A DNA stretch of 64,000 nucleotides from Rhodospirillales bacterium. GTDB taxonomy: Bacteria > Pseudomonadota > Alphaproteobacteria > ATCC43930 > CGMCC-115725. Positions 9,472-18,661 of this stretch are shown here, in pieces. Where the stretch lies: positions 1 to 64,000 of the forward strand of contig DAHUYF010000041.1 of the NCBI GenBank assembly GCA_027315365.1, in the 5' to 3' direction. Numbering within the stretch: the first letter of the stretch is position 1; each line of letters starts with the position of its first letter. Under the pieces are notes generated by a model. The model did not search any database and was not told the DNA's origin. It saw only the letters and a program-made list of their open reading frames with translations. The position numbers were made by a program, and so were the translations under genes.

Positions 9472-11859
9472 TCATCGCTCCGCGCTCGCCAGCAGCTCGC
9501 CCAGCACCGTTGCGGTCATCGGCAGCTCGGCGACGGCCAGTCCGAGCGGCGCCAGCGCGTCGTTGACTGCGCTCGCCACCGCGGCGGGCGCGCCGAGATA
9601 TCCGGCTTCGCCCGATCCCTTCTGACCGAAGGCGGTGAGCGGCGAGGGCGTGCAGTGATCGACGATGGCGATATCCGGCACCTCATGCGCCGAGGGGATG
9701 AGATAGTCCATGAAGGAGCCGCTGAGCAGCTGGCCGTTCTCGTCGTAGCGGAAGCGCTCGTAGAGCGCCGCGCCGATGCCGTGCGCGGCACCGCCATAGG
9801 TCATGCCGTGGACGATGTCGGGGTTGATCATGGTGCCGCAATCATGGCCGATGACGTAGGGGCCGAGCGTCACTTGGCCGGTGGCACGGTCGAGCTCGGC
9901 ATAGACGACATGCGTCTCGAAGGCGTAGCAGGGATACATCTGGACGCGCCCGTCGGCGGTGGGCAGGGCGCCGCCGGTCGGCACCTCCCAGACATGCATC
10001 GCCTGCAGCCCCGGCGCCATGCCGGGCGGCAGCTTGTGGAATTTGCGATGCGCGATCTCGACCAGCGCGTCCCAGGAGCGGCCGCTTGCGGGATCGCGCC
10101 GCAGCCGCACGCCGCCGTCGCGATACTCGAGTTCCGCCTCGGTCACGCCGAGATCATGCGCGGCGACCGCCAGTAGCGCCGCCTTGAGCGTGCGCGCAGC
10201 GCCGGCCGCGGCGCCGCCCAGCATGATCGCCATGCGGCTGCCGACCGGGCTGTTGCTCGGCATCGCCGTCAGCGAATCCGAATGCACGACGCGGATGGTC
10301 TCGGGATCGCGCTCCAGCACTTCGCCGATGATGGTGGCGACCAGCGTCTCGTGTCCCTGCCCGGAGGATGAGGTGCCCATCGCCGCGGTGATGGCGCCGG
10401 AGAGATCGACCTTGACAGTGCAGGATTCCATCCAGGTCGTGGTCTCGTTCTTGGGATTGAACAGCGGCTCGAAGGCGGAGTTGCCGCCGCTCGGCTCGAG
10501 GCAGCAGGCGACGCCGATCCCGGCGAGCTTTCCCGCCGCGCGCGCCGCGTCGCGCCGGGCCAGCAGATCGGCGTGGCCGGCGGCGTCGAGCGCCTTCGCC
10601 AGCACGGCGTGATAGTCGCCGCTGTCATAGGTGCTGCCGCTGGGAATGGTGTAGGGGAACTGCTCGTGCCGGATGAGGTTGCGCCGGCGCAGCTCGACGC
10701 GGTCGATGCCGAGTTGGCGCGCCACCCGGTCCATCATCGTCTCCAACGCGAAATTGGTCGGCGACTGGCCGAATCCCCGCACCGCCTCCTGCACCGTCTT
10801 GTTGGTGGTGACGCTGATCGCCTCGTATTCGACGCTGCCGATGCGATAGGGGCCGACGATCGCGCCCACCGGCTTGCCGAGCTGCAGCGGCGCCCGCCCG
10901 GCATAGGCGCCGGCATCGTCGAGCGCGCGCAGGCGCAGCGAGCGCACGATGCCGTCCGATGTAAAGGCGCAGGCCACGTCGAACAGACGGTCGGGCCCAT
11001 GCGCGTCGCCGCCGCGCATGTTCTCCAGCCGATCCTCGATCAGGCGGACCGGCGCGCCGAGCTTCCTCGCGAGATATCCCGCCAGCACGCTGTGCTTGAT
11101 GCCGCGCTTGACGCCGTAGGAGCCGCCGACATCGACGTCGAAATGGACGCGCACGGCGTTGCCCGGGAGCCGCAGCGCGCGGGCGAGCTGATCGGGGTAT
11201 TTCGGCATCTGGATCGAGGCCCAGACATCGAGCAGCCGCGCCGCCTCGTCCCAGCGCGCCACCACGCCGAAGGTCTCGATCGGCACCGTGGCGCTGCGAT
11301 GCCAGCGGGCGCGGAACGACAGCGTGTGCTCGGCGGCGGCGAAATCCTCCGCCACCGGGCCCCAGGTGAAGGTGCGGCGATAGAGCAGGTTCGAGCCGTG
11401 CTCGGGATGAACCGGCGGCGCGCCGGGCTCGATCGCCGCCTCGGGGTCGATCACGAAGGGCAGCGGCTCGTACGCCACATCCACCAGCTCGGCCGCGTCC
11501 TCGGCGATGGCGCGCGTCTCCGCCACCACCGCCGCCACCCATTCGCCGACATAGCGCGCGCGACCGACCGCCAGCGGAAAGCGCCGCACCTGGGGAATGT
11601 CGAGGCCCGACGCCAGCGCCTCGGTCGCCTGCGCCAGCTCCGCGCCGGTGAGCACCGCGCGCACCCCCGGCAGCGCCAGCGCGGCGCGCGCGTCGATGGC
11701 GACAAGGCGCGCCGCCGGATAGGGGCTCGCCACCAGCGCTACATGCAGCATGCCCGGGAGCGCGAGATCGGCGACGAAGCGGCCGGCGCCGGCGACGAAG
11801 CGCCGATCCTCGCGCGGCCGCCGCTTGCGCCCGATATAGCGGAAGCCGCCCTCAGCCAT
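9472..11859 (-). CDS. Molybdenum hydroxylase, molybdopterin-binding large subunit (xanthine dehydrogenase/CoxL superfamily)
   Basis: 795 residues, the usual size for a CoxL/NdhL-type subunit. The N-terminal a/b hammerhead domain includes YIGRKRRPREDRRFVAGAGR. The Moco-binding part carries GSYGVKRGIKH, a VRGFGQSPTN segment and GTSSSGQGHET. The catalytic base is the Glu in GQKGSGEAGYLG near the C-terminus. The aerobic CO dehydrogenase signature AYRCSFR is absent, so CO oxidation is not supported. The subunit adds water-derived oxygen to an electron-poor carbon, typically of an N-heterocycle or aldehyde. Its start overlaps the 2Fe-2S subunit stop by 8 bases. Electron flow would be Mo to the 2Fe-2S clusters to FAD. 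Confidence 0.93.
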   Translation of the reverse strand: MAEGGFRYIGRKRRPREDRRFVAGAGRFVADLALPGMLHVALVASPYPAARLVAIDARAALALPGVRAVLTGAELAQATEALASGLDIPQVRRFPLAVGRARYVGEWVAAVVAETRAIAEDAAELVDVAYEPLPFVIDPEAAIEPGAPPVHPEHGSNLLYRRTFTWGPVAEDFAAAEHTLSFRARWHRSATVPIETFGVVARWDEAARLLDVWASIQMPKYPDQLARALRLPGNAVRVHFDVDVGGSYGVKRGIKHSVLAGYLARKLGAPVRLIEDRLENMRGGDAHGPDRLFDVACAFTSDGIVRSLRLRALDDAGAYAGRAPLQLGKPVGAIVGPYRIGSVEYEAISVTTNKTVQEAVRGFGQSPTNFALETMMDRVARQLGIDRVELRRRNLIRHEQFPYTIPSGSTYDSGDYHAVLAKALDAAGHADLLARRDAARAAGKLAGIGVACCLEPSGGNSAFEPLFNPKNETTTWMESCTVKVDLSGAITAAMGTSSSGQGHETLVATIIGEVLERDPETIRVVHSDSLTAMPSNSPVGSRMAIMLGGAAAGAARTLKAALLAVAAHDLGVTEAELEYRDGGVRLRRDPASGRSWDALVEIAHRKFHKLPPGMAPGLQAMHVWEVPTGGALPTADGRVQMYPCYAFETHVVYAELDRATGQVTLGPYVIGHDCGTMINPDIVHGMTYGGAAHGIGAALYERFRYDENGQLLSGSFMDYLIPSAHEVPDIAIVDHCTPSPLTAFGQKGSGEAGYLGAPAAVASAVNDALAPLGLAVAELPMTATVLGELLASAER

Positions 11860-12358
11860 GGTCGGTGCCGGGAGCGAGATTGGCGCCGCCGAGCCGCTCG
11901 GCCGCGATGCGGATTGCCTCGACGATCTGCTTGTAGCCGGTGCAGCGGCAGAGATTGCCGCCGATCGCCTCGCGGATCTCCTCCTCCGAGGGCGACAGCG
12001 TCCGCCGCAACAGCGCCTCGGCGGCGATCAGCATGCCGGGCGTGCAGAAGCCGCATTGCAGCCCGTGCGCCTCGCAGAAGCTGTCCTGCAGCACGCCGAG
12101 CGCGCCCGGCTCGGGCGCCAGACCTTCGACGGTGGTGATCGCCGCTCCCTCCGCCTGCACCGCGAAGATCAGGCAGGAGCGCACCGGCCTGCCGTCGAGC
12201 AGCACCGAGCAGGCGCCGCAGACGCCGTGCTCGCAGCCGGCATGGGTGCCGGTGAGGCGCAGCTCGTCGCGCAGGAAATCGACCAGCGTCAGCCGCGCGG
12301 CGACGCGGGCGGCATGGCGGCGGCCGTTGACGGTGAGCGTGATCTCGTGCTGCGACAT
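11852..12358 (-). CDS. Molybdenum hydroxylase, [2Fe-2S] small subunit
   Basis: 168 residues. The plant-ferredoxin-type cluster motif is GCEHGVCGACSVLLDG, with a further Cys in RSCLIF. The second, helical domain has CGFCTPGMLI and NLCRCTGYKQIVEAI, giving the CxxC...CxC set of the xanthine dehydrogenase family. The start at 12358 (MSQHEITLTVNG) was chosen because the preceding reading frame is low-complexity and unlike the family. It starts 4 bases after the FAD subunit stop and overlaps the large subunit, so FAD, Fe-S and Mo subunits are in the order M-S-L. Confidence 0.95.
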   Translation of the reverse strand: MSQHEITLTVNGRRHAARVAARLTLVDFLRDELRLTGTHAGCEHGVCGACSVLLDGRPVRSCLIFAVQAEGAAITTVEGLAPEPGALGVLQDSFCEAHGLQCGFCTPGMLIAAEALLRRTLSPSEEEIREAIGGNLCRCTGYKQIVEAIRIAAERLGGANLAPGTDHG

Positions 12359-12362
12359 GGGG

Positions 12363-13238
12363 TCAGCCCAGGGCCTCGGCGCGCGCCTCGGCCAGGGCGC
12401 GCGCCAGCATCGCGCCGGCGGCGCGGCGGCGGTATTCGGCCGAGGCATGGAGATCGGCGATCGGCGCCAGATCCTTCTCGGCGAGCGCCAGCGCGGCGGC
12501 GACGTCGTCCTCGGCGAGGGTCGTGCCGACGAGGCGCCCCGCCGCTTCCTCGAGCACGAGCGGCGTCGTCGCGGCGCCGCCCAGCCCCAGCGCCGCGCGC
12601 CGGCACACGCCGCGCTCGTCGAGCGCCAGCTGCGCCGCCGCCGCCGCCAGCGCGAAATCGCTGCGCCGGATGCTGGTCTCCTGGAAGCCGGTGCCGAATC
12701 GCGGCGCCGTCGGCCAGACCGGGAAGCGCACGGCGACCAGACATTCCTCCTCGGCGAGCGCCGTCGCCATCGCGCCGATGAAGAAATCGCGCGCGGCGAT
12801 GATGCGCTCGCCTTGGGCCGAGCGCGCGATCAGCTCCGCCTCGAGGGTGGCCGCCGCGAGGCAGATCTCGGCGGCGGGGTCGGCATGGGCGAGGCTGCCG
12901 CCGATGGTGCCGCGGTTGCGCGTCTGGACGTGGCCGACGAAGCCCAGCGCCTTGGTGAGCAGCGGCAGGCGCCGGCGCAGCAGCAGGTTGGCCAGCGCGT
13001 CGGCCTGGGGCGTGGCCGCCTGCACGTTCAGGTGGTTTTCGCCGGCTTCGATGCCCCGCAGATCGGCGACGGCGTTGATGTCGACCAGCAGCGCCGGCCG
13101 CACCAGCCGCATCGCCATCAGCGGCACCAGCGTCTGGCCGCCGGCGATGATCCGGCCCTCGCCGCCGGCGCCGGCCAGCAGCCGGCAGGCCTCGTCCGCG
13201 CTTGCCGCCCGGGCGTAATCGAACTCCGCAGCCTTCAT
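12363..13238 (-). CDS. Molybdenum hydroxylase, FAD-binding medium subunit
   Basis: 291 residues. FAD pyrophosphate-binding motifs are visible: IIAGGQTLVPLM near residue 35, and NRGTIGGSLAHADPAAE near residue 115. The C-terminal CO_deh_flav_C domain follows (TSIRRSDFALAAAAAQLAL). It starts MKAAEFDYARA; the longer in-frame extension has no family resemblance. It is the first gene of the minus-strand run that ends with the amidohydrolase. The promoter is expected in 13239-13436, a 198-base stretch before nrsF in which no clear promoter or operator was recognised. Confidence 0.95.
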   Translation of the reverse strand: MKAAEFDYARAASADEACRLLAGAGGEGRIIAGGQTLVPLMAMRLVRPALLVDINAVADLRGIEAGENHLNVQAATPQADALANLLLRRRLPLLTKALGFVGHVQTRNRGTIGGSLAHADPAAEICLAAATLEAELIARSAQGERIIAARDFFIGAMATALAEEECLVAVRFPVWPTAPRFGTGFQETSIRRSDFALAAAAAQLALDERGVCRRAALGLGGAATTPLVLEEAAGRLVGTTLAEDDVAAALALAEKDLAPIADLHASAEYRRRAAGAMLARALAEARAEALG

Positions 13239-13436
13239 CCCTCGTGCTTCCGCGCGGCGTGCCCGCGTCTCCGGATTTCCTCCGCGTCCCACCCTTACAG
13301 GCCGGGTCCACCGGCGGCAAGGGGTGGGCCGGGCCGGCATCCGCGATCAGACAGGGCGGCAAACCGCGCGCGAGATCGTCAACCCCCGAAGGGAGAGGCG
13401 AGTGACCGAGCTGCAATCATTGATATCGGTGCCCGT

Positions 13437-14087
13437 TCACCCCTTCCGCCGGCCCACCGCCCGCTCCGCGCCAGCCACCGCCGCGACGACCACCGAGACC
13501 GCCGCGGCGTGGACGGCGAGATCCATGATGGTGATGTCGAAGGGGTGGAAGAACTGCAGGGCGAAGGCGGCGATGGCAGCGACGCCGAGGCCGCCCACCG
13601 CCGCCACCCGCACCGGCGCCAGCGGCGCCGCGCGGCGCAGCAGCGGCACCAGGCTCACCGCCAGCGGCACGCTGACGCCGAGGATGAAGCGGAAGCAATC
13701 GGCGCTCTCGCCGATCGCCCAGCCGTCCGGGCCATACACGATCCAATGCCGCCAGCAGGCATAGCCGCTGCTGGCGATCCACAGCGCCAGGCTCGGCAGC
13801 GGCAGCAGCGCCCAGGCGGCGGCGCGGTCGGGCAGGCTCAGCTCGAAAGCGGCGACGATGGCGAGGATGCCGGTCAGCAACGTGAAGATCAGCTCCAGCG
13901 CCAGCTTGGGATCGGCGGCGCGGCGGGCGAAGACGTCGAGATTGGCGAACAGCAGAATGGCGGCCGCCAGCACCGCTGCCACCGCGGCGAGCCAGAGCGC
14001 GGCGCGCAGCACCGGCGGCCGCAGGCGGCGCACCGGCTCGGCCTCGGCCGCCAGGCGCTCGATCAGCCGGTCGGTATCGCTCGTCAT
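13437..14087 (-). CDS. nrsF: NrsF-type membrane anti-sigma factor (DUF1109)
   Basis: 216 residues with a short cytoplasmic N-terminus (MTSDTDRLIERLAAEAEPVR), then six hydrophobic segments, the architecture of DUF1109. Two Cys in periplasm-adjacent positions, in GYACWRHW and ESADCFRF, match the conserved Cys pair needed for sensing in the Caulobacter NrsF. In Caulobacter crescentus NrsF holds SigF at the membrane and releases it under metal/redox stress such as chromate, cadmium or copper. The start overlaps the sigF stop by 4 bases (ATGA), so the two are coupled. The family assignment is strong; the inducer here is inferred. Confidence 0.9.
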   Translation of the reverse strand: MTSDTDRLIERLAAEAEPVRRLRPPVLRAALWLAAVAAVLAAAILLFANLDVFARRAADPKLALELIFTLLTGILAIVAAFELSLPDRAAAWALLPLPSLALWIASSGYACWRHWIVYGPDGWAIGESADCFRFILGVSVPLAVSLVPLLRRAAPLAPVRVAAVGGLGVAAIAAFALQFFHPFDITIMDLAVHAAAVSVVVAAVAGAERAVGRRKG

Positions 14088-14650
14088 TCCTCCGCTCCCG
14101 TCAGCCGCTGGCGCAGCGACTTGATCGCCCGGTGGACATTGACCTTGAGCGCGGCGATCGACTTGCCGCTCAAGCCCGAGGCCTCGGCCAAGCTGAGCTC
14201 GCGCAGCTTCAACAGCTCGATCGCCTCGCGCTGCGGCGGCGTGAGCCCGGCGATCGCCTCGCCCAACCCGTCGCGCGCCGCCGATGCCTCCACTACCCTG
14301 TTCGCTGCCGGGTCGGCAAAGGTTTCATAGGCGGTATCGTCGGCGATCTCATGCGCCTCGGTGCGCAGCCGCCGGCGCAGCGCGTCGATCGACCGCCGCC
14401 GGGCGATCGACGCCAGCCAATGCCGGAACGGGCGGGCGGGGTCGTAGGTGTGGCGGACGCGGTGGATGGTGAGCAGCACCTCCTGCGTCACCTCCTCGAC
14501 CCGGTCGCGCGCGCGGTGCTGGCGCGACACCACGGCGCGGATGAACGGCACGATCTCGCGCAGCAGCCGCTCATAGGCGGCGCGATCGCCGTCCTGGGCG
14601 GCCGCCATCAGCAGCGACCAGTGCCGATCCGCCTCGAGCTGTTCGCCCAC
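14084..14650 (-). CDS. sigF: ECF sigma factor, SigF type
   Basis: About 188 residues from a GTG at 14650, which has GAGG 5 bases upstream. A TTG at 14692 would add 14 residues but overlaps the -35 of the divergent promoter. Region 2 is seen in RVEEVTQEVLLTIHRVRHTY followed by RPFRHWLASIARRRSIDALR. Region 4 reads LTPPQREAIELLKLRELSLA followed by the recognition helix around ASGLSGKSIAALKVNVHRAI. Pairing with NrsF and divergence from a DUF2282 operon identify it as the SigF group. Known SigF promoters have the form GTAACC-N16-CGAA; one such site lies just upstream facing the bufferin operon. Confidence 0.9.
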   Translation of the reverse strand: MGEQLEADRHWSLLMAAAQDGDRAAYERLLREIVPFIRAVVSRQHRARDRVEEVTQEVLLTIHRVRHTYDPARPFRHWLASIARRRSIDALRRRLRTEAHEIADDTAYETFADPAANRVVEASAARDGLGEAIAGLTPPQREAIELLKLRELSLAEASGLSGKSIAALKVNVHRAIKSLRQRLTGAEE

Positions 14651-14684
14651 CCTCGCCTCGACCGGAAAATGCGACCCGGGCAGT

Positions 14685-14709
14685 GTAACCAATGACGCGG
14701 CCGGGCGAA
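14685..14709 (+). promoter_or_regulatory. Candidate SigF-dependent promoter of the bufferin operon
   Basis: GTAACC at 14685-14690 is followed after 15 bases by CGAA at 14706-14709. This is within one base of the spacing published for Caulobacter SigF promoters (GTAACC-N16-CGAA). It lies 62 bases before the DUF2282 start codon, pointing into the operon. No second copy with correct spacing was found upstream of other operons in this window, nor facing sigF itself. Confidence 0.75.
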
Positions 14710-14771
14710 CAGGGTGATGCGGGCGGCCGGCAAGACGGCGCGGTCCGCGGCCCCTTTCTCAGGAGAGACTC

Positions 14772-15050
14772 ATGAACAGCATCAGCAAGACCGGCTTCCT
14801 CGTCGCTTCCGCCGTCGCCGCCACCGTGGCGCTGCCGCTCCTGGCCAATGCCGGTCCGGCGCCGATGCCGACCTTCCAGGCGGAGAAGTGCTACGGCATC
14901 AACGCCGCCGGCAAGAACGACTGCGCCTCGTCCAACAGCCATTCCTGCGCCGGCGAGGCGAAGCGGGCGTCCGATCCGAAGTCCTGGATCTACCTGCCGG
15001 TCGGCACCTGCGGCAAGATCGTGGGCGGCAGCACCAGCCCCAAGGCGTAA
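14772..15050 (+). CDS. bufA1: Bufferin-type prepeptide (DUF2282)
   Basis: 92 residues. A Sec signal ([20 protein letters not shown], then LPLLANA) is followed by a short mature peptide with four Cys at 40, 51, 59 and 80: [24 protein letters not shown] and GTCGKIVGG. This is the DUF2282/BufA1 pattern. In characterised bufferins the DUF692 enzyme with its partner converts core Cys to 5-thiooxazole and the exported peptide binds copper. The ribosome site AGGAGAG precedes the ATG. The next three genes are the processing and accessory genes, and the SigF-type promoter lies upstream. Copper binding here is inferred from the family. Confidence 0.92.
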
Positions 15051-15084
15051 CCGCCGGTCAGGGCCCCACAGGCGGAGCGGGACG

Positions 15085-15954
15085 ATGATCTCCGAAGCGA
15101 ACGGCAACAGCGCGATCCCGGCGGCGATCGGGATCGGCCTGCGCGCGCCGCACCTCGCGGAGATCATCGCCACCCGCCCCGCCTTGGGCTGGCTCGAGGT
15201 GCATGCCGAGAACTACATGGGCGGCGGCCCCGCACTGACGCAGCTCGAGGTGGTGCGGCGCGACTATCGACTGAGCCTGCACGGCGTTGGATTGTCGCTC
15301 GGCAGCGCCGAAGGCATCGACGCGGCGCATCTCGGCCGGCTCAAACTTCTCGTCGACCGGCTCGAACCCTTCCTCGTCTCCGAGCATCTTTCCTGGAGCG
15401 TCAGCGGCGGCGCCTATCTCAACGACCTGCTGCCGCTGCCCTACACCGAGGAGGCGCTCGACATCGTCGCCGCCAATCTGGCGCAGGCGCAGGATGCGCT
15501 CGGCCGCCCGCTGCTGCTGGAGAATCCCTCGGGCTATCTGCGGTTTCGCCACTCCACCATCGCCGAGCCCGATTTCCTCGCCGAACTGGTGCGGCGCAGC
15601 GGCTGCCGGCTGCTCTGCGACGTCAACAACATCGTGGTGAGCGCGAGTAATCTCGGCTTCGATGCCAAGGCCTATCTCGACGCGCTGCCGGCGGCGGCGG
15701 TGGCCGAGATCCATCTCGCCGGCCACGCCGCGACGGAGCGCGGCGGCAGGACGCTGCTGATCGACGACCATGGCAGCCGCGTGGCGGCACCGGTCTGGGC
15801 GCTCTATCGCCGCGCGCTCGCCCATTTCGGCCTGGTGCCGAGCCTGGTCGAATGGGACAGGAACCTGCCGGCGCTGCCGGTGCTGATCGAGGAGGCGCGC
15901 CGGGCCGAGGGCATGGCGCAGGATGTGGGGGGCGGCGATGCCGGCACTGCGTGA
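15085..15954 (+). CDS. bufB1: MNIO-family peptide-modifying enzyme (DUF692)
   Basis: 289 residues forming a TIM barrel of the DUF692 family, multinuclear non-heme iron-dependent oxidases. Metal-ligand motifs occur in order: [70 protein letters not shown], and [11 protein letters not shown]. It is expected to oxidise Cys of the adjacent DUF2282 peptide. The start at 15085 is 34 bases after the prepeptide stop, with GGAGCGGG upstream. It overlaps the DUF2063 gene, its usual obligate partner, by 17 bases. Confidence 0.93.
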
Positions 15955-16732
15955 GCTGCAGGAGGATTTCCGCCGGGCGCTGCTGGAGGGCGCGGCGGAT
16001 GCGGTCGCGGCGCTGATCGAGACCGGCGATCTTTCCGCCGAGGAGCGCCTCGACGTCCATCGCAACAACCTCTTCGCCTCGCTCACTGCGGCGCTGCGCG
16101 ACACCTTCCCGGCGGTCTGCCGGCTGGTCGACGAACGCTTCTTCGCCTACGCCGCGCACGAATTCATCCGCCTTCGGCCGCCGGCGCGCGCGGTGCTGGC
16201 GGACTATGGCGCGGACTTCCCTGCCTTCCTCGCCGATTTCCCGCCCTGCCGCGAGCTTGCCTGGCTCGCCGATGTGGCGCGGCTCGAATGGCTGATGGCG
16301 CATGCCGCGCGCGCCGCCGAAGCCGAGCCGCTGGGCGCCGCGGCGCTCGCCGGGGTCGCGCCGGAGGATACGCCGCGTTTGGGGCTGTGGCTCCATCCCG
16401 CGTTGGGCTATCTCGCCTCGCCCTTTCCCGTCGACCGGATCTGGCGCGCCAATCGCCCGGAGGGCGACGCGGCGGCGGTCGATCTCGATGCCGGCGGCGT
16501 GCGGCTGGAGCTCGGCCGTCGCGGCGGCGAAGTGGTGATGCGCCCGCTCGGGCAAGCGAGCTTCGCCTTCCGCCAGGCGCTGGCGCAGGGCGCGGCGCTC
16601 GAAGCGGCGGCGGCGCGGGCGCTGATCGTCGAGCCCGCCTTCGATCTCGCCCGGGCGCTGGGCGATCTCTTCCGCGACGGCGCGGTGGTCGCCGCCGAGG
16701 TTCTCTTTCCCGCAATGGAGGCAATGCCATGA
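15938..16732 (+). CDS. bufC1: DUF2063 partner protein of MNIO enzyme
   Basis: 264 residues. The N-terminal DUF2063 DNA-binding-like fold is seen in [17 protein letters not shown] and [19 protein letters not shown], with the family hallmark [12 protein letters not shown]. In bufferin and related systems this protein recruits the prepeptide to the MNIO enzyme. An ATG at 15923 is in frame, but 15938 is better placed after a G-rich ribosome site and gives [11 protein letters not shown], typical of the family. Overlaps with both neighbours indicate tight coupling. Confidence 0.9.
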
Positions 16733-17199
16733 CCGATCATGCCGCGACACTCGCTCCCGTCTCCTGGCGCGGCCGCATCGCCGCGCTCCTGGCGCTGCTC
16801 GAGCGCTTCCCGACGGCGATCCTGCAATTCCTCTTCCGCTTCAGCGTGGCCGCGGTGTTCTGGAATTCCGGCCTCACCAAGATCGCCAGCTGGCAGAGCA
16901 CAATCGTGCTGTTCCGCGACGAGTACAAAGTGCCGGTACTGCCGCCGGAGCTGGCGGCGAGCCTGGCCGCCTCGGTCGAGCTCACCTGCCCGGTGCTGCT
17001 GGTGCTGGGTCTGGCGACGCGGCTCGCCACGCTGCCGATGCTCGGCATGACCTTCGTCATCGAGGCCTTCGTCTATCCCGAGGACTGGATCGAGCACCTG
17101 AGCTGGGCCTCGTTCCTGCTCTTCATCCTGACCCGCGGCCCCGGCCCGATCGCCCTCGACCGCTTCCTCGCGCCACTGCTGCTGGGGCGCCGGCGGTAA
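16729..17199 (+). CDS. DoxX-family membrane protein of bufferin operon
   Basis: 156 residues, four predicted membrane helices: AILQFLFRFSVAAVFWNSG, the helix around LVLGLATRLATLPMLGM, TFVIEAFVYP and SFLLFILTRGPGPIALDRF. The RFSVAAVFWNSGLTKI and GPGPIALD motifs are DoxX hallmarks. DoxX genes are a regular fourth member of SigF-controlled DUF2282-DUF692-DUF2063 operons; their role is unproven, perhaps membrane redox support. The ATG overlaps the upstream stop as ATGA. Confidence 0.9.
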   Translation: MTDHAATLAPVSWRGRIAALLALLERFPTAILQFLFRFSVAAVFWNSGLTKIASWQSTIVLFRDEYKVPVLPPELAASLAASVELTCPVLLVLGLATRLATLPMLGMTFVIEAFVYPEDWIEHLSWASFLLFILTRGPGPIALDRFLAPLLLGRRR

Positions 17200-17311: not shown

Positions 17312-18661
17312 ATGAATTTTGGACTGACCGGCGCGCAGCCGCTGCCGCCCCCCTCCCGCAAGGCGATGATCGCCGGCTGCGTCGGCTTCGCCGTCGATTT
17401 CTTCGACATCTATCTGCCGGTTCTGGCGCTCGCGCCGGTGACGCCGTACTTCCAGCCGCCAGGGCTGAGTTCGACGGCGACGACGACCATCTATTTTTTC
17501 ATCTTCGCCGCGACCTTGCTGGGCCGCCCGTGCGGCGCGGTGGTCTTCGGCCATTGGGCCGACCGGATCGGGCGCCGGCGGATGACGCTGATCAGCATCG
17601 TCGGCTTCGGCGCCTTCACCTTCCTGATCGCCTGCCTGCCGGGCTACGCCACGATCGGCATGGCGTCCCTGGCGCTGCTGATCCTGTTCCGCTTCGTCGG
17701 CGGCGTCTTCATGGGCGGCGAGTACACCTCGAACAACACGCTGGCGCTCGAGATGGTGCCCAAGGAACGGCGCGGCTTCGTCGGCGGCGTTCTGCAAGGT
17801 GCCTATCCTCTCGGCTTCTTCTTCGTCTCGGTGGTGACCAGCATCCTGCTCGGCGTCACCGCGCCGGCGCAGTACCTGCTCTGGGGCTGGCGCGTCGCCT
17901 TCGTGCTCGGCGCCGTCCTCGCCTACCTGTTCCTGCTCTACTATGTCAGCGTGCCGGAGTCGCCGGTATGGCTGGAAAGTGAAAAGAGCGGCGCGCCGCT
18001 GAAGGACGTGGTGTCGGGTCCGCATCGCAAAAGCCTGGCGCAGATCTTCGTCATGATGGTGGGCTTCTGGTTCGGCGCGCAATCCCTGATCAGTCTCATG
18101 CCGGGGGTGCTGATCCAGCAATTGCACGTGCCCAGCCGGCTGATGACCAACGGGCTGCTGATCACCAGCTTCGTCCAGTTCTTCGCTTTCGTCGGATTCG
18201 GCGTGCTGGGCCAGGCGATCGGCCGGCGCCCTGCCATCGTGCTCGGCGGCATCGCCATCCTGATCGGCGGCACCGGCCTGTATGCCGCGGCGGTGGCCAA
18301 CGCGCTTTCCGGCGGCGGCCCGGTGGCGACGACCTTGATTGCCTGCCTCTGCTATCTGCTCGTCGTCTCGCCCTGGGGGATCGTGACGACCTATATCTGC
18401 GAGCGCTTTCCGACGCAGATACGGGCATCGGGCTACGGCATCGGCTACAGCCTGGCGGTGGTCATCCCCGCCTTCAGCGGCGCCTATCTGCTCGCGCTGC
18501 GCCAGTTCATGCCCTACGCCTACACTCCCGTGGTGCTGATCGGCCTGTCGGGCGTCCTGATCGTCGTCGGCGCGCTGCTCGGGCCGGAAACGCGCGACGT
18601 GGAGCTGCGCGCCGTCGATCGGCGCGTGCAAGGGCGCGTGCGGCGGCGCCAACTGGCTTGA
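17312..18661 (+). CDS. MFS transporter, metabolite:H+ symporter type
   Basis: 449 residues, 12 predicted helices. The motif-A loop between helices 2 and 3 reads GHWADRIGRRRMTL. The first helix contains DFFDIYLPVLALAP, and GGVFMGGEYTSNNTLALEMV with VPKERRGF fits the metabolite:H+ symporter/ShiA-ProP-like subfamily, which carries organic acids, shikimate or osmolytes. A GAGGAG site 8 bases before ATG 17312 fixes the start; a TTG 6 bases earlier was rejected. It is transcribed alone. It follows the bufferin operon but has its own candidate promoter. Substrate unknown. Confidence 0.88.
   Translation: MNFGLTGAQPLPPPSRKAMIAGCVGFAVDFFDIYLPVLALAPVTPYFQPPGLSSTATTTIYFFIFAATLLGRPCGAVVFGHWADRIGRRRMTLISIVGFGAFTFLIACLPGYATIGMASLALLILFRFVGGVFMGGEYTSNNTLALEMVPKERRGFVGGVLQGAYPLGFFFVSVVTSILLGVTAPAQYLLWGWRVAFVLGAVLAYLFLLYYVSVPESPVWLESEKSGAPLKDVVSGPHRKSLAQIFVMMVGFWFGAQSLISLMPGVLIQQLHVPSRLMTNGLLITSFVQFFAFVGFGVLGQAIGRRPAIVLGGIAILIGGTGLYAAAVANALSGGGPVATTLIACLCYLLVVSPWGIVTTYICERFPTQIRASGYGIGYSLAVVIPAFSGAYLLALRQFMPYAYTPVVLIGLSGVLIVVGALLGPETRDVELRAVDRRVQGRVRRRQLA

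Follow-up and report, generated by a model that had tools for sequence, protein, structure and literature searches.

How NrsF-type anti-sigma factors perceive metals or oxidants is unsettled, and the published models rest on two cysteines that are conserved in the family as described so far, Cys131 and Cys181. In the window, by which we mean the whole 64,000-nucleotide stretch of DNA analysed here, an NrsF with no cysteine at position 181 is encoded beside a set of bufferin genes. This locus raises the question of what such a sensor reads, and of whether the bufferin genes next to it are under its control.

Open reading frames and Pfam and NCBIfam profile searches show that none of the named genes of the locus is missing and that all are intact. 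On the minus strand, sigF (14084-14650) encodes an ECF sigma factor of 188 amino acids with sigma-70 regions 2 and 4 (PF04542 and PF08281), and nrsF (13437-14087) encodes a six-helix membrane anti-sigma factor of the DUF1109/NrsF type, 216 amino acids in length (PF06532, 1.6e-18, 67.7 bits). The two genes are coupled, with the end of sigF overlapping the start of nrsF by 4 bases. The start of sigF is most likely the GTG at 14650, rather than a TTG within the promoter, because the former codon is common to two genus relatives (L070, L071). Divergent from this pair, four overlapping or closely spaced genes lie on the plus strand: bufA (14772-15050), for a Buf1-type (DUF2282) bufferin precursor of 92 amino acids (PF10048, 1.3e-21, 76.7 bits); bufB (15085-15954, starting at ATG 15085), for an MNIO (DUF692) maturase of 289 amino acids (PF05114, MbnB_TglH_ChrH, 4.7e-101, 337.9 bits); bufC (15938-16732), for a DUF2063 partner protein of 264 amino acids (PF09836, 6.2e-22, 78.1 bits); and doxX (16729-17199), for a DoxX-family membrane protein of 156 amino acids (PF07681, 2.8e-16, 60.3 bits). 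The profile searches thus bear out the gene assignments and strands given in an earlier note on this DNA. That note also placed the whole path from sensing to product within 3.1 kb. The components do lie together, but nrsF falls outside the interval that had been named (14084-17199), and with nrsF included the system extends over ∼3.76 kb (13437-17199).

On one side, nrsF is adjoined by genes for a xanthine/CO-dehydrogenase-type enzyme (9472-13340, minus strand), of which the 2Fe-2S and FAD subunits were confirmed; on the other, doxX is adjoined by a gene for an MFS metabolite transporter (17312-18661, plus strand). We saw no link between either neighbour and the bufferin system. ARAGORN calls a tRNA-Ser (GCT) at 13130-13214 on the minus strand, inside the coding region of the molybdopterin dehydrogenase FAD subunit. 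This is probably a false call, as Rfam gave no match anywhere in the window.

Alignments show that the window NrsF carries Cys111, Cys131 and His181; the earlier note passes over the missing Cys181. Among 67 aligned relatives of the same kind, Cys111 and Cys131 are each present in 67/67 and His181 in 66/67; the loci of these relatives were mostly fetched with the pattern AAFx[LA][ST][LM]PDR, which does not cover the three residues in question, although the seed alignment was itself of this kind. An unselected, even class-wide sample of 60 NrsF sequences divides into 29 with Cys131 and Cys181 (hereafter class I), 25 with Cys111, Cys131 and His181 (class II), and six that have a CxxC including Cys131 and neither Cys111 nor Cys181 (L171, L172, L173, L178, L202 and L208). 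Hence ∼40% (25/60) of evenly sampled NrsF proteins lack Cys181 and have the near-invariant Cys111 and His181 instead. Cys131 is common to all 60, Cys111 and Cys181 never occur together (0/60), and every sampled NrsF without Cys181 has a different second cysteine, either Cys111 or one forming a CxxC with Cys131. On a tree built from SigF alone, the three NrsF layouts require three changes, compared to 24.4 for shuffled labels. The class found in the window falls in one SigF branch (support 95/94), which also holds two members of the CxxC type.

The AlphaFold2 model of NrsF has a pLDDT of 92.3 and a pTM of 0.87. If the N terminus is cytoplasmic, the model would place Cys111 toward the periplasmic end of helix 3, Cys131 where helix 4 begins, and His181 in the loop that joins helices 5 and 6. 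Searches of the PDB returned no significant fold relative of NrsF, and none by sequence either. In the literature that we searched, the coverage of which was incomplete, a second NrsF class is not mentioned, and the NrsF described here is apparently an undescribed sensor variant. We also considered a link between class II NrsF and bufferins and rejected it, since BufB is encoded close to 12/29 of the class I pairs and to 8/25 of those of class II.

We propose, tentatively and as somewhat short of probable, that NrsF proteins fall into two or more sensor classes, which divided along with their sigma factors. The second sensing cysteine would have passed from position 181 to position 111, with an invariant histidine at the old place. 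Copper or redox stress would then be read by a Cys-Cys-His site instead of by a pair of cysteines, and the direct autoregulation known from Caulobacter would mostly be absent. A rather doubtful but serious alternative leaves the operon and promoter unchanged and gives the residue difference no sensory meaning, Cys111 and His181 being kept for folding or packing while sensing falls to methionines, to Cys131 alone or to another protein. Conservation within a clade may reflect structure and not sensing, and Cys131 is the only one of these positions shared by the whole class-wide sample. Two published observations also speak for this alternative. In Caulobacter, where Cys131 and Cys181 of NrsF both matter, single cysteine mutants still respond (PMC3511200). 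For Bradyrhizobium OsrA, the authors caution that the signal does not necessarily enter primarily at C179, and they draw attention to methionines in the periplasm; in their mutants, repression is abolished by C129S and induction by H2O2 is abolished by C179S (PMC3420878). Set against this are the near-invariance of Cys111 and His181 across diverse relatives and the presence of another second cysteine in every sampled NrsF that lacks Cys181.

Whether SigF controls the bufferin genes was addressed through its predicted promoter (14685-14709, plus strand, directed toward bufA). Between the divergent genes, GTAACC (14685-14690) is separated by 15 bases from CGAA (14706-14709), which ends 62 bases before the bufA ATG. 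The core elements are exact, in keeping with the earlier description of this sequence as close to the Caulobacter SigF consensus, and transcription of bufA would be expected to start near 14716. Among related loci with bufA beside class II sigF-nrsF, 26 of 36 have GTAAC-N-N14-17-CGAA upstream of bufA (N15 16 times, N16 12 times). The same motif is found upstream of sigF in 2/59 class II relatives, and GTAACY-N15/16-CGAA occurs 58 times in the 1.32 million strand-bases of all 60 related loci, bufA sites included. Such recurrence at the same position, given the scarcity of the motif across these loci, argues that the match goes beyond chance. In the even class-wide sample, the motif lies upstream of 22/26 bufA genes, and the spacer is N16 at 11/11 class I sites and N15 at 6/8 class II sites. 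We therefore rejected the idea that the N15 spacer is a defect, since it is common in this branch. GTAACC-N14-17-CGAA is not enriched genome-wide (14 matches versus 24 for the reversed control pattern), and the case for the promoter is therefore positional and comparative.

No σF-type promoter was found upstream of sigF within the window. Class-wide, such a site is seen upstream of sigF in 12/29 class I and 3/25 class II loci, suggesting that direct autoregulation is uncommon in class II. We also looked for a structured leader RNA at 14715-14775 and found none (z-score −0.01).

A stricter pattern, GTAACY-N15/16-CGAAC, has three sites in the 4.97 Mb genome: the bufA site, a site ∼98 bp upstream of msrP on contig C152, and a site on contig C7 with no evident target. 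MsrP of C152 scores above its NCBIfam cut-off, and the msrP site recurs in G018 and in each of the three genus relatives that were searched. Because msrP (CC2748) is also a σF target in Caulobacter (PMC3511200), finding it again independently is what most strongly identifies the motif as the σF site in this organism. Taken with homology, gene order and promoter position, this second predicted target supports the reading of the locus as a σF-controlled bufferin system, as the earlier note had it. In genus relative G003 (79% complete), sigF-nrsF has no adjacent bufA and the old promoter reads CGAC rather than CGAA. Elsewhere, locus L072 (3066-3764, minus strand) has a class II sigF-nrsF without bufferin genes, and GTAACT-N15-CGAA lies upstream of the gene for a secreted DUF1223 protein, possibly a different σF target.

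Retention of the msrP site in 4/4 genus members, including G003 with its altered −10 element and no bufA beside sigF, lends some weight to a second alternative: that SigF, like other ECF16 factors, responds chiefly to oxidative or chlorine stress (we assign this SigF to ECF16 on the basis of NrsF, promoter and tree), with msrP as its main target and the bufferin in a secondary role, serving redox protection rather than copper. OsrA responds to H2O2 (PMC3420878) and Brucella BcrS/AbcS to HOCl. We nonetheless regard this as unlikely, given that few Caulobacter genes are copper-induced under every condition, the bufferin set and msrPQ among them, and that a mutant in sigF is sensitive to copper (PMC8224329). 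It is very improbable that GTAACC-N15-CGAA matches by chance and that a different promoter serves bufA: the pattern by itself is not enriched and its spacer falls one base short of that in Caulobacter, but most relatives keep the motif at this position, the N15 spacer is the more frequent one in this branch, and the msrP site was recovered independently.

The product of the operon was examined along with its maturation enzymes. The BufA precursor has a signal peptide, as judged by eye, and cysteines at positions 40, 51, 59 and 80, with a spacing (11-8-21) that is the same in relatives. The earlier description of a four-Cys DUF2282 prepeptide is correct in this respect, except that the four positions had been attributed to the mature peptide and are those of the precursor; with cleavage after Ala27, a site likewise chosen by eye, the mature BufA would have cysteines at about 13, 24, 32 and 53. 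BufB scores above the cut-off of the NCBIfam MNIO_BufB equivalog (371.5 bits versus 310), shows the conserved His/Asp/Glu/Asn columns in alignment, and has a relative in the PDB, 3BWW; no MNIO gene other than bufB was found in the 4.97 Mb genome. BufC falls below the NCBIfam HvfC equivalog cut-off and DoxX below that of the HvfX family. The Buf1 core cluster is complete, consisting of the four-Cys DUF2282 precursor, a BufB-type MNIO, a DUF2063 partner and DoxX. In Buf1 bufferins, modification falls on the two central cysteines, and a disulphide links the outer two (PMC12452194); by analogy the MNIO-modified residues here would be Cys51 and Cys59.

The same genome contains a second, orphan DUF2282 bufA with four cysteines (L026:1403-1668; G000:C61:4948-5213), with no adjacent MNIO gene and no σF motif upstream. 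Similar orphan bufA genes are present in G002 and G003. The G003 copy (L022:1483-2079, minus strand) has lost the two central cysteines and kept the outer pair, and no MNIO gene was found in the 79% complete G003 assembly. This combination, in one incomplete assembly, fits with the central cysteines being the MNIO targets.

The gene content and order, the conservation of the promoter, the msrP site and the pattern of residues in NrsF were observed directly, and we consider it very probable that bufA-bufB-bufC-doxX is a Buf1-type operon under a divergent σF/NrsF pair with a variant-class sensor. For σF dependence, copper induction, thiooxazoles and what the two classical cysteines do, the scheme that follows draws on work in Caulobacter and Bradyrhizobium. 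NrsF in the inner membrane would hold SigF until copper or a related thiol-reactive stress in the envelope altered its periplasmic side and SigF was released. With RNA polymerase, SigF would then transcribe bufABC-doxX, with GTAACC-N15-CGAA as the promoter, and also msrP at its separate place in the genome, the latter for the repair of oxidised periplasmic methionines. BufB and BufC would convert Cys51 and Cys59 of BufA to thiooxazoles, the outer pair Cys40-Cys80 would form a disulphide, and the exported peptide would sequester copper. The sensing residues would most likely be among Cys111, Cys131 and His181, at the periplasmic face of the membrane, rather than the classical Cys131 and Cys181; what the sensor binds, and what Cys111 and His181 do in it, are our own inferences.

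This reading of the locus is supported and is not new, as the same set is known in Caulobacter under σF. There, CC3252 (nrsF), CC3253 (sigF) and CC3254-CC3257 (DUF2282, DUF692, DUF2063 and DoxX) are controlled by σF via GTAACC-N16-CGAA, and the bufA homologue has its start site at −61 (PMC3511200). Caulobacter Buf1 bears thiooxazoles and aids growth in excess copper, and genes for the sigma factor and NrsF are recorded as components of Buf1 clusters (PMC12452194). The presence of sensor, sigma factor, promoter and product at one site is therefore ordinary, given the published Caulobacter arrangement (PMC3511200, PMC8224329), the recorded cluster components and recurrence in many relatives. With its complete core cluster and four-Cys precursor, the operon shares what defines the Buf1 bufferins (captophorins); we found nothing that sets it apart from them, and it adds one more well-defined bufferin locus.

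The likeness to Caulobacter vibrioides/crescentus extends to the genes, the sigma/anti-sigma pair, the promoter core and the second target, msrP. The differences lie in the spacer (15 bases here, 16 in Caulobacter), in the promoter upstream of sigF, which is present in Caulobacter and has no match here, and in the number of MNIO operons, with two in Caulobacter and one here plus an orphan bufA. Bradyrhizobium OsrA/EcfF and Brucella AbcS/BcrS pair an ECF16 sigma factor with a six-helix DUF1109 anti-sigma factor of the NrsF family that has the equivalent of Cys131 (C129), as here. The Bradyrhizobium sigF-type gene has its own σF-type promoter, however, which the window sigF does not, and OsrA C179 has no equivalent cysteine here, its place being taken by His181. 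The same contrast holds for Caulobacter NrsF, with Cys131 and Cys181 there and Cys111, Cys131 and His181 here, and the two NrsF classes, on one scaffold, offer a direct route to what the sensor reads.
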